Origin: an uncultured Candidatus Poseidoniales archaeon
Lineage (GTDB): Archaea > Thermoplasmatota > Poseidoniia > Poseidoniales > Thalassarchaeaceae
Reading direction: 5' to 3'
Length of the DNA: 64,000 nucleotides
Assembly: GCA_905182515.1 (NCBI GenBank)
Contig: CAJJBW010000006.1
Span: 1-64,000, forward strand
Shown: one piece after another, positions 18,046-21,694 of the stretch
Numbering within the stretch: the stretch's first letter is position 1
Layout: every line of letters starts with the position of its first letter
Notes under the pieces: model-generated
The model's input: only the letters and a program-made list of their open reading frames with translations
What the model was told of the DNA's origin: nothing
Databases searched by the model: none
Position numbers and translations under genes: made by a program

Positions 18046-18786
18046 ATGGGTGAAAGGCTAGATGTACCTATTCCAAAATCATGCAATAGAATCTGTATAG
18101 TATTAGTTAAACCTCAATTCGATGGCAATATTGGTGCAGTTGCTCGCTCAATGCTTAATTTTGGAATATCAGATTTAAGAATTGTGGGCAGAGAAAATAA
18201 TTGGTCTGAGGAAACACGAAATCGTGCCAAACATGCACAATCAGTGTTAGATAAATCAAATTCATTTGATTCTATTGCCCGGGCTACTCATGATTGTTCC
18301 TTAGTTGTTGGAACTTCAGGTAAAAGAGAATTTGGGAGTAAAACATCATTCAGACACTTTATTGATCCAGAAGAATTGCCAGCTAGATTGGAGAATACTG
18401 AAGGTAAAATAGCTATTATATTTGGCCCAGAAGGCATAGGTTTACTAAATGAGGAATTACATCAATGTGATTTATTCATTTCTATACCTACATGGGAAGG
18501 TTATCCGATTATGAACCTAAGTCATGCAGTTTCTGTAATTTGTTATGCGTGGTATCGTACTTTAGATCATGATATATCAGATCGGTTATTGTTGCCTGAA
18601 TTACGGACTCAATTAAAACATGAAATTAATAGATTAGTTAAATTAATGCCAGCAAAAAATCATTCTAGAAAGGGGATTGAGGAAACTCTATTCAGAGTCA
18701 TAATGAGAGGATTACCTAAAGATGACGAAATTCATAGATTATTGGGTGTCATTAAAGAGTCTGCTGATTCCTTTGAAAAGAATTAA
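18046..18786 (+). CDS. trmJ: TrmJ-like SPOUT 2'-O-methyltransferase
   Basis: SpoU-type RNA methyltransferase with the three SPOUT motifs: 'VKPQFDGNIGAVARSMLNFG', 'IAIIFGPEGIGLLNEEL' and 'SIPTWEGYPIMNLSHAVSVI'. The C-terminal helical extension (from about residue 175) is like TrmJ, which methylates position 32 of tRNA using S-adenosylmethionine. Close neighbours in the family modify other tRNA or rRNA sites, so the precise target is inferred. Its position after the ribosomal operon supports a role in translation. Confidence 0.85.
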   Translation: MGERLDVPIPKSCNRICIVLVKPQFDGNIGAVARSMLNFGISDLRIVGRENNWSEETRNRAKHAQSVLDKSNSFDSIARATHDCSLVVGTSGKREFGSKTSFRHFIDPEELPARLENTEGKIAIIFGPEGIGLLNEELHQCDLFISIPTWEGYPIMNLSHAVSVICYAWYRTLDHDISDRLLLPELRTQLKHEINRLVKLMPAKNHSRKGIEETLFRVIMRGLPKDDEIHRLLGVIKESADSFEKN

Positions 18787-19232
18787 ATTCTATAAACAGC
18801 TAATGATTTTGGAGTTTCTCTTACATGCATAGCAATTAATTTTAACTTATTTCCATATCTGGATTTAATGTAAGGATTTATTTGTTCAAATCCCCATTTA
18901 GCTAAATTTTCAGCCGTAGGAATAAAATCTAATTTTATTGTCCTATGATTTTCACCCATCAAATCTAAAGCTCTAATACACTCATCATCCCTATTATACA
19001 CAATAAAAGAATGATCTATTACGTCATGTATATATTTATTTAAGATATTTGAAACATCTGAAAAATCAATCAACATACCTTCATCTGATACACCTGGTTC
19101 AGTTACTAGGTCACCTTCAATTTCGGCCTCAAATCTATATCTATGGCCATGCATATGCCTACATTTACTTTTATGATTTGGGACTCTATGTCCGGTATCA
19201 GTCTCTACATATCTACGAATTATCGTTGGCAT
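18783..19232 (-). CDS. queD: QueD-type 6-carboxytetrahydropterin synthase
   Basis: 6-pyruvoyltetrahydropterin synthase fold. The zinc histidines are seen in 'CRHMHGHRYRFEAEIEG', with the catalytic cysteine two residues ahead of the HxHGH element, and 'GMLIDFSDVSNILNKYI' and 'DVIDHSFIV' follow. It makes 6-carboxy-tetrahydropterin from dihydroneopterin triphosphate, the second step toward preQ0. It is last in the folE-queE-queC-queD order; its ATG overlaps the stop of the queC::msrB gene (TAATG), so translation is coupled. Confidence 0.92.
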   Translation of the reverse strand: MPTIIRRYVETDTGHRVPNHKSKCRHMHGHRYRFEAEIEGDLVTEPGVSDEGMLIDFSDVSNILNKYIHDVIDHSFIVYNRDDECIRALDLMGENHRTIKLDFIPTAENLAKWGFEQINPYIKSRYGNKLKLIAMHVRETPKSLAVYRI

Positions 19233-20335
19233 TATTTATTCTCCTTGAAATCTAAACTTATGGAATTAATACAATATCTATTGTTACCATATTCATTGGG
19301 CCCATCATCAAATATATGCCCTAAATGAGAATCACATTGTGAACACCTAACTTCGACACGTTTCATTCCATGGCTGGTGTCAATCACCTTCTTAATTTTA
19401 GCATCACTATGTTCACTGTGGAATGCAGGCCATCCGCAATTAGAATTATATTTCATATCTGAAGTGAAGAGCAATATATTGCAATTGTAACATCTATATT
19501 CTCCTTCATCGAAATGATCATCATATTTCCCTGTAAATCCTCTTTCTGTACCATTATTTCTAGTTACATGATGCCTTAATTCTATTTCTAATGCATTTTT
19601 TAGTATTTCTTCCCAAGGTTTAACGTACTCTATGGGGTCTATTCTACCTATAGAATGGAATGCCAATATTCTTTCAACATCGGAACCACTTTTGCCACTT
19701 GATCTTCCCTTGCTATCTGGATTATAGGATGTTATTGTATTTGCAAAAATTGTATCAAAACTGATGCCTAAGATCTGACATGATTTCAACGCATCTTCCA
19801 ATATATATTTTTTATTTCCTTCGATGAATGGTAGATAAAAAGAAACTTTCTCTGAATCCCAATTACCTAATGAAAATGAATTATTTATTGATTCATAAAA
19901 TTCTGGCCTACAATCAGGATAAATTGTATGATCTCCAGAATGTACACCCAATGCTATTTGGACGTCAGTGTTATGTAAATTTGATAATGATATAGCATAG
20001 CCATAAAGGATAGAAGAGAATATTGCATTTCTATTAGGGACTACAGTTAATTTCATTTGATCTTCTTCATAATGGCCTTCTGGAATATTAATTTTAGGAT
20101 CTGTTAACGCTGAACTTAATAAGTTCATTGCACTTGTTAAATCTATTATTTTATGATCAATTTTATGGCCATTTTCTCTCAAGAACATTATATTATTTTT
20201 AGCTTTAATTAATTCTAATTTATGTTTTTGCCCGTAATCAAAAGATATGCAACTAACCTCGTAACCATTAGATAATAAATTAATTAACAAACTAGTGGAA
20301 TCCATTCCTCCGCTTAAAGATAGGATTGCTCTCAT
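19232..20335 (-). CDS. queC: QueC (preQ0 synthase) fused to methionine-R-sulfoxide reductase MsrB
   Basis: A 367-residue fusion. Residues 1-237 are QueC: P-loop 'LSLSGGMDSTSLL', 'SFDYGQKHKLE', 'VVPNRNAIFSS', 'YPDCRPEFYESIN'. Residues about 248-367 are a complete MsrB: 'VTRNNGTERGFTGKYDDH', zinc pairs CYNC and CSQC, 'NCGWPAFHSE', 'DTSHGMKRVEVRC' and the catalytic 'YCINSISLDF'. Strikingly, the four zinc cysteines of QueC are all replaced in register: TCY becomes TSY (Ser203), and the CxxCxxC becomes S213-x-x-S216-x-x-D219. ATG 20335 overlaps the queE stop as TAATG. The operon context supports preQ0 synthesis; what the reductase half does there is unknown. Confidence 0.9.
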   Translation of the reverse strand: MRAILSLSGGMDSTSLLINLLSNGYEVSCISFDYGQKHKLELIKAKNNIMFLRENGHKIDHKIIDLTSAMNLLSSALTDPKINIPEGHYEEDQMKLTVVPNRNAIFSSILYGYAISLSNLHNTDVQIALGVHSGDHTIYPDCRPEFYESINNSFSLGNWDSEKVSFYLPFIEGNKKYILEDALKSCQILGISFDTIFANTITSYNPDSKGRSSGKSGSDVERILAFHSIGRIDPIEYVKPWEEILKNALEIELRHHVTRNNGTERGFTGKYDDHFDEGEYRCYNCNILLFTSDMKYNSNCGWPAFHSEHSDAKIKKVIDTSHGMKRVEVRCSQCDSHLGHIFDDGPNEYGNNRYCINSISLDFKENK

Positions 20336-20931
20336 TAATCCACCCCCATCCATTTATGTGTTTGAAGTGATAATCTCCATTCAGGATTATTTTTTACAAT
20401 ATCTTCACATATTGTAAAATTCTTACCATTCCATTCTATTGTTTCATTTTCAAAGTAACATGGTTGAATATATAAGTGATCAAAACCAGTCTTTAATTCA
20501 TCATAAATAACTAAGTCTTGACCACAATAAACTACCTTTAATTCATTTCCTTTACGTTGTATAATTTTAGAGTTAGGATATAATTGATCTTTAGGAGATA
20601 CGCATATCCAGTCTATTATATTAGGAACTGGAATAGTACCATTAGTCTCTACTGACAACGTTACATCATATTTTTTTAATTCTTTTCCAATTGTATCAAG
20701 ATCTTGTAAACAAGGTTCCCCACCTGTGAAAATTACTCTTTTACAATTGAAGGATAAAATTTTCTTTACTATGTCATCTAGAAACATCTCTTCATAATCT
20801 AGAAAATTAGTATCACACCATTCACACCTTAAATTACAATTTCCAAATCTAACAAAAATATGAGGTACTCCTGTATGATATGCTTCACCTTGTACCGAGT
20901 AGAATATTTCTACTATTGGATATTTTATCAT
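20335..20931 (-). CDS. queE: QueE, 7-carboxy-7-deazaguanine synthase
   Basis: Radical SAM enzyme that contracts the pterin ring to 7-carboxy-7-deazaguanine. The cluster motif is CNLRCEWC (C-x3-C-x2-C) in 'RFGNCNLRCEWCDTNF', preceded by the QueE hallmark 'EIFYSVQGEAYHTGVPHIFV' and followed by 'VIFTGGEPCLQ'. The ATG at 20931 follows an AGGAGTG site and gives the usual N terminus. It sits between folE and queC, with stop/start overlap into queC. Confidence 0.94.
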   Translation of the reverse strand: MIKYPIVEIFYSVQGEAYHTGVPHIFVRFGNCNLRCEWCDTNFLDYEEMFLDDIVKKILSFNCKRVIFTGGEPCLQDLDTIGKELKKYDVTLSVETNGTIPVPNIIDWICVSPKDQLYPNSKIIQRKGNELKVVYCGQDLVIYDELKTGFDHLYIQPCYFENETIEWNGKNFTICEDIVKNNPEWRLSLQTHKWMGVD

Positions 20932-20946
20932 ATTAAACACTCCTAA

Positions 20947-21525
20947 CTATTTCATTCCAATAAGTTTTAATAATTCACTTCTAGCTTCCGGTTTTTTCAA
21001 AAATACACCTTTCATTGTTGACGTTGTCATTATGCTGTTTTGTTTCTTAATTCCTCTACATTTCATGCAACCATGTGATGCGTTGATTATTACAGCCGCA
21101 CCTAATGGATTCAAGTATTTTTCCAAATCATCGGCAATACACTTTGTAATTCTTTCTTGGTTTTGTAATTGTCTGGCATGTTTTTCTACTAACCTAGCTA
21201 GTTTACTAATTCCAACGATTCTATCTATTGGTATATATGCAATATGCGCAGATCCACTAAAAGGTAGCATATGGTGTTCACATGTTGAATGAAACTCTAT
21301 ATCTTTTAACAAAACTATTCCATCATATCCTTCAGAATTAAATGTTGAATTTAATATTTCTTTCGAACTTATTTTATATCCGGCATATAATTCTTCATAA
21401 GAATCTATCACTCTTTTTGAGGTATCTAAAACTCCTTCTCTAAGATTACCGTCTATATTCTCAATATATCTTACTAATGTTTCTATAGCACTTTCTGCAT
21501 CAATTTTATTAGGTATTCTACTCAT
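20947..21525 (-). CDS. folE: GTP cyclohydrolase I (FolE type)
   Basis: Converts GTP to dihydroneopterin triphosphate, the entry step for folates and 7-deazaguanines. The zinc ligands are seen in 'STCEHHMLPFSGSAHIAYIP' and 'SHGCMKCRGIKKQNSIMTTS'; 'VGISKLARLVEKHARQLQNQ' is also diagnostic. This is the bacterial-type FolE-I rather than the archaeal MptA/FolE2 form, suggesting past lateral acquisition. It follows the RHH gene by four bases, with a GGAGATAG-like site in the overlap region. Confidence 0.94.
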   Translation of the reverse strand: MSRIPNKIDAESAIETLVRYIENIDGNLREGVLDTSKRVIDSYEELYAGYKISSKEILNSTFNSEGYDGIVLLKDIEFHSTCEHHMLPFSGSAHIAYIPIDRIVGISKLARLVEKHARQLQNQERITKCIADDLEKYLNPLGAAVIINASHGCMKCRGIKKQNSIMTTSTMKGVFLKKPEARSELLKLIGMK

Positions 21526-21529
21526 AATT

Positions 21530-21694
21530 CTATCTCCTTCCGTGATATTGATCTATGGCATCTAACTGGTCTAACATTTTCCTACATGCTGTTCTAATAG
21601 AATCAGCAACTGAAATAAATTTCTTTGTATCACCTATATGTGTTTTTAAATCATTCAAAATTTCTTCAGGCATGTCTAAACTTATCTTTGGCAC
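21530..21694 (-). CDS. Ribbon-helix-helix (CopG/Arc-like) regulator
   Basis: A 54-residue protein opening with 'PKISLDMPEEILNDLKTHIG', a classic RHH beta-strand and first helix, then 'KKFISVADSIRTACRKMLDQ' as the second helix. Such dimers insert the strand in the DNA major groove. The start is GTG at 21694; the stop is four bases before folE, so it is the first gene of the preQ0 operon. A palindrome 42 bases upstream of its start is a plausible autoregulatory operator. The gene is too short for most gene-length cut-offs. Confidence 0.85.
   Translation of the reverse strand: MPKISLDMPEEILNDLKTHIGDTKKFISVADSIRTACRKMLDQLDAIDQYHGRR

Follow-up and report, generated by a model that had tools for sequence, protein, structure and literature searches.

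The literature treats QueC as a zinc enzyme. The available portions of a 2026 survey of the PF06508 family (PMC13329287) define canonical QueC by its zinc motif and report mutagenesis of the E. coli enzyme, in which Tyr35, Arg99, Tyr131 and Tyr189 of the catalytic motifs were essential. They make no mention of a zinc-less canonical group or of an MsrB fusion. In the open-licence literature searched, nothing relevant was found on QueC together with methionine sulfoxide reductase or Poseidoniales, and no description of a QueC-MsrB fusion was found.

Such a fusion is encoded in the window, the whole stretch of 64,000 nucleotides analysed here, which comes from a metagenome-assembled genome (MAG) of a Poseidoniales archaeon that is 71% complete. 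The gene belongs to an operon with the order RHH-like ORF, folE, queE, queC::msrB, queD, established by family searches and by gene order kept in relatives. With canonical QueC (PF06508 cluster 1; E. coli, B. subtilis 3BL5, Erwinia/Pectobacterium 2PG3) it shares the fold, the folE/queE/queD operon, the motifs SGGxDS, YxQxHxxE, VPxRN and YPDC, a conserved Lys and, within the zinc region, the essential Tyr. Unlike canonical QueC, it has Ser/Ser/Ser/Asp at the ligand positions, a C-terminal tail helix and an MsrB domain. The features of the locus are as follows.

21530..21694, minus strand: small RHH-like ORF with a GTG start upstream of folE; approximately 72-83% identity in relatives; RHH by eye, no profile
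20947..21525, minus strand: folE; TIGR00063 193.9 bits, above the cut-off
20335..20940, minus strand: queE; TIGR04508 E 6e-41, below its cut-off
19232..20353, minus strand: queC::msrB fusion gene; 373 aa, uninterrupted single frame, conserved in relatives
19652..20332, minus strand: QueC domain, aa 8-234; PF06508 E 3e-41; model matches 2pg3 and 3bl5
20297..20314, minus strand: SGGMDS ATP/PPi loop, aa 14-19; invariant except at the x position in alignments A1 and A2
20213..20236, minus strand: YGQKHKLE, the canonical YxQxHxxE, aa 40-47; from sequence, motif as in the available part of PMC13329287
20027..20041, minus strand: VPNRN, the canonical VPxRN, aa 105-109; from sequence, motif from the same part of that survey
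19910..19921, minus strand: YPDC substrate motif, aa 145-148; from sequence, motif likewise from that part
19679..19732, minus strand: former zinc site, aa 208-225; S209, S219, S222 and D225 replace the four Cys, the essential Tyr Y210 is retained
19568..19627, minus strand: QueC C-terminal tail helix, aa 243-262; common to stand-alone and viral zinc-less QueC
19244..19576, minus strand: MsrB domain (SelR), aa 260-370; PF01641 E 5e-45
19262..19279, minus strand: MsrB catalytic RYCINS (C361); from sequence and alignment
18783..19232, minus strand: queD; TIGR03367 78.8 bits (cut-off 89), PF01242 E 7e-27

The QueC half scores 141.6 bits against PF06508 (cut-off 22) and 134.8 bits against the NCBIfam model TIGR00364, below the cut-off of 150.3. 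All published catalytic motifs are intact in its sequence, including the Tyr beside ligand 1. In the zinc region the canonical T-C-Y ... C-G-K-C-D-S-C has become T-S209-Y ... S219-G-K-S222-G-S-D225 with unchanged spacing. The MsrB half is above the cut-offs of both PF01641 and TIGR00357 and is complete, with the zinc pairs C288/C291 and C337/C340, the resolving C306 in CGWP, and RYCINS. The original prediction of one frame joining QueC to a catalytically intact MsrB, with the four zinc cysteines of QueC substituted in register, is thus confirmed, and Pfam places both domains. Its span of 19232-20335 is correct at 19232, whereas 20335 is the internal Met7; the ORF reaches a longer ATG start at 20353, which overlaps queE by 19 nt. 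Of the operon proposed there, the que and fol genes were recovered by family searches; the RHH identity was assigned by eye only, and the ORF is conserved. The C-terminal tail was also considered as a remnant of MsrB, which is ruled out since stand-alone and viral zinc-less QueC carry the same tail. A SpoU-family RNA methylase gene (18046-18786), convergent with queD, adjoins the operon in most relatives.

An AlphaFold2 model was built from 31 sequences and predicted without metal (mean pLDDT 84). The block means of the former zinc region (approximately aa 205-236) are about 87-93, and the loop is thus predicted to keep its shape, with the proviso that AlphaFold2 may impose the family fold. 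The tail helix follows at aa 247-262; pLDDT falls under 50 at aa 262-276 and is 61-88 in most MsrB blocks. Foldseek matches the model to 2pg3 and 3bl5 (target TM 0.75-0.78), to MsrB structures and to the Cap9 structure 9nto.

By protein search, 88 of the 98 relatives have a match, the named matches being Marine Group II / Poseidoniales MAGs. All 84 Poseidoniales QueC that could be read with flanks lack Cys at all four positions. Ser occupies ligand 1 (Thr in one copy); ligand 2 is mostly Ser but also A, N, H, P, E or Y; ligand 3 is Ser or Thr; and ligand 4 is Asp throughout. A replacement of this kind shared by 84 of 84 genomes is neither chance nor sequencing error. MsrB is fused to QueC in 45 of the 84, follows directly as a separate gene in 28 (truncated at a contig end in one case), and is absent in 11, where queD directly follows queC. 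Both traits sought in relatives, the substitution and the fusion, were thus found, the former in all 84 Poseidoniales copies read and the latter in 45. Separate queC and msrB genes, named in advance as evidence against the prediction, do occur in about one third of the genomes. Yet their QueC is zinc-less too, which makes zinc loss a trait independent of fusion. The fused and unfused states require at least five changes on the QueC tree (subsample). The junction, measured from ERILAF to GTE, has two constant lengths, 114 and 156 nt, which suggests two or more fusion events, or a single one followed by a deletion.

Canonical QueC with all four Cys is present in 14 other Thermoplasmatota genomes and in one MGIII genome, G098 (15 QueC). 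In a further five MGIII genomes QueC is zinc-less. These QueC (que operons L138-L142) are nested among Poseidoniales in the tree, which implies transfer of the gene, perhaps of the whole operon. One of them (L140, 3434-4216, genome G107) has Cys at ligand 1 (TNTCY) and S, S, D elsewhere, and is the only mixed state seen. A scan of genome contigs using six peptide patterns showed no zinc-less QueC in cellular bacteria. A contig titled Candidatus Neomarinimicrobiota (L038) has a Poseidoniia-type folE-queE-queC and is probably mis-binned.

Outside Poseidoniia the highest scores belong to viral copies, likewise zinc-less, from IMG/VR contigs and Flavobacterium phage immuto. Phage immuto is an isolate and scores 208 bits; the other phage records among the matches listed have at most 128. 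Two viral profile searches confirmed at least 587 and at least 566 stretches as relatives. The second query stopped short of the zinc region and was therefore blind to the zinc state; in the best 80 of its at least 566 loci there were 68 zinc-less copies, three CCCC copies, one incomplete copy and no partial state. Among the matches listed, 112 of 115 distinct typed viral copies are zinc-less and three are CCCC, the types being S;DSS (98), S;SSD (6), S;STD (3), S;NTD (3), S;DTD (2) and CCCC (3). These typed sets are the copies closest to the window protein and give no estimate of the zinc-less share among all viruses. One viral QueC outside the clade described below (L179, 4956-5750) has TWSDYSGG and lacks C-x2-C-x2-C; its zinc site may have been lost independently.

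The 204 typed copies (84 Poseidoniales, five MGIII, 115 viral) include one mixed state. Apart from it, a copy has either CCCC or a set with Ser/Thr at ligands 1 and 3 and Asp at ligand 2, ligand 4 or both, so that switching is nearly all-or-none. Every zinc-less copy typed has Asp at ligand 2 or 4, with (S,D) at these positions in most archaea and (D,S) in most viruses. With Asp at ligand 4 in archaea and at ligand 2 in most viruses, these two positions seem to lie opposite one another, like ligands around a zinc.

The genes folE, queD and queE accompany queC in many of these viruses, the set expected for 7-deazaguanine modification of DNA (PMC6884629). Locus L195 has genes for an RFC small subunit of archaeal type and for a Hef/Xpf-like nuclease; from these two genes its host is probably an archaeon, perhaps of the Poseidoniales. 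A conserved ORF lies near the zinc-less queC in 69 of 101 viral loci (e.g., L163, 3479-4276, and L162, 2967-3743). Its resemblance to TGT/DpdA was seen by eye only, with no support from Pfam, NCBIfam or PHROGs.

In a QueC tree built without the zinc columns, Poseidoniia and 14 viral zinc-less QueC form one clade with support 100/99, and adjacent to it lie zinc-type Pelagicoccus and one viral sequence. With more viruses in the tree, three CCCC copies fall inside the clade; a tree forcing the zinc-less copies into one clade is not rejected (AU p 0.25), so that the zinc site may have been lost once or may have been lost or regained several times. Poseidoniia form one side of a weakly supported branch (81/89). 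Judged from these sequences, the Poseidoniia QueC is foreign to the rest of the phylum and closest to viral QueC, and the substitution marks a QueC lineage common to Poseidoniia and aquatic viruses.

The fusion QueC is the sole QueC found in the window's genome. TgtA is present there above the cut-off (433.5 bits), and ArcS-like genes occur in 59 of 59 relatives with scores below the curated cut-off. Three genomes of group g8 (G016, G026, G035) and G078 lack queC, queE and msrB and retain TgtA and ArcS-like genes; preQ0 salvage or MAG gaps are possible there.

The simplest reading, which we consider probable, is that the QueC half is a zinc-free preQ0 synthase, since there is one QueC per genome, the catalytic residues are intact and archaeosine needs preQ0; we infer both the absence of the metal and the activity. 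The requirement of QueC for zinc in the current literature counts against it, as do the scores of QueC under the TIGR00364 cut-off and of the ArcS-like genes under their curated one. The enzyme would convert CDG, ammonia and two ATP to preQ0 without zinc. The Ser/Asp cluster would replace the four-Cys site as a unit, with Ser/Thr at ligands 1 and 3 and Asp at 2 or 4, and would hold the same loop and position the catalytic Tyr, probably via hydrogen bonds. In the archaea, preQ0 would then supply TgtA and an ArcS-like enzyme for archaeosine formation in tRNA. Among the three alternatives originally offered (zinc dispensable, zinc replaced by MsrB, or changed chemistry), the first is favoured.

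It is also conceivable, but rather unlikely, that the cysteines were lost in adaptation to scarce zinc or to photo-oxidative stress in surface waters, the linkage with MsrB reflecting a shared oxidative-stress regulon. In its favour are the planktonic marine life of Poseidoniales, the repair function of MsrB and the RHH-like ORF at the head of the operon. However, the neighbours FolE and MsrB retain their zinc ligands, the trait tracks a lineage shared with viruses, and zinc-less QueC is kept in several lineages having neither MsrA nor MsrB.

A change of chemistry, in which the zinc-less QueC stops at the amide ADG or ligates CDG to protein like Cap9, seems improbable to us. QueC-family enzymes have been repurposed elsewhere, as in Cap9 and as proposed for QatC, and dADG occurs in the DNA of some phages (PMC6884629). 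However, the CDG and ATP motifs are intact in zinc-less QueC, whereas Cap9 retains its Cys; no CBASS or Qat partners adjoin the gene; and it is the sole QueC of a genome whose archaeal TGT uses preQ0. With the published catalytic motifs intact and a preQ0-requiring archaeosine pathway present, this alternative of the original prediction finds no support in the sequences. We give slightly less credence still to a new catalytic outcome tuned to viral DNA in the zinc-less lineage as a whole (ADG release or ligation of CDG to a partner), with an altered archaeosine route in Poseidoniia.

A structural substitution of the missing QueC zinc by the fused MsrB, which is a zinc protein too, is very unlikely, even though 45 of 84 genomes have the fusion. 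Zinc-less QueC occurs without linked MsrB in 11 Poseidoniales, in MGIII archaea and in all zinc-less viral copies; fused and separate forms share the Ser/Asp site; and a low-confidence segment connects the two domains in the model. The que-linked MsrB is the only one found in the window's genome and normally the only one in the relatives searched, contig-end fragments apart. Moreover, eight of the genomes searched that have this QueC contain no MsrB anywhere (G010, G011, G013, G020, G021, G030, G031, G072). In seven the zinc region is readable and zinc-less; in G030 the contig ends before it. MsrB therefore cannot be the replacement for zinc, and this alternative is contradicted. The absence of MsrB coincides with that of MsrA (9 of 13 genomes, Fisher p 3e-5, kinship ignored).

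The best reading of the MsrB half is that of an ordinary repair enzyme joined to QueC by recurrent operon fusion, a consequence of the position of msrB immediately after queC in the que operon. It would be the cell's only methionine-R-sulfoxide reductase, with the two domains independent of each other. Operon neighbourhood and recurrent fusion explain the pairing without a dedicated link between methionine sulfoxide repair and 7-deazaguanine synthesis. Finally, gene decay, a chimaeric gene or misassembly, to be considered in view of the 71% complete MAG, is ruled out for practical purposes by conservation across relatives: fusion and substitutions recur in dozens of other genomes, so that the junction is no assembly error, and the catalytic residues of both halves are conserved.

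A lineage that replaces all four ligands and keeps the catalytic residues would indicate that zinc is not part of QueC chemistry. It offers a natural test of the role of the metal in an enzyme for which it is described as required, and the near absence of mixed states points to a clean switch, amenable to motif swapping. The data also indicate that marine archaea and aquatic viruses have exchanged preQ0 genes.

Several described systems resemble parts of this locus. Gat-QueC of archaea and phage 9g is likewise a QueC fusion protein of archaea and viruses, but its partner is a glutamine amidotransferase domain for archaeosine formation, which the present fusion lacks: Pfam finds only the QueC and SelR domains. 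Cap9 of type IV CBASS and QatC are relatives with the QueC fold for which modification of protein N-termini is described or proposed. They keep a Cys-rich zinc site and reside in defence operons, whereas the fusion gene has no Cys site and has que operon neighbours rather than a CD-NTase or qatA/B/D. In its CxxC pairs, CGWP and RYCINS the MsrB half is a complete 2-Cys zinc enzyme like those of the MsrB/SelR family, including the MsrA-MsrB and PilB fusions. However, it is paired with QueC where the known fusions pair with MsrA. A parallel to the loss of the site itself is given by C-minus paralogs of ribosomal proteins, which have lost a whole Cys zinc site with fold and function kept, and which usually coexist with the zinc form in one genome under zinc control. 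In the QueC described here, by contrast, the zinc form is replaced (for zinc-ligand-free ribosomal paralogs cf. the available part of PMC13343924).
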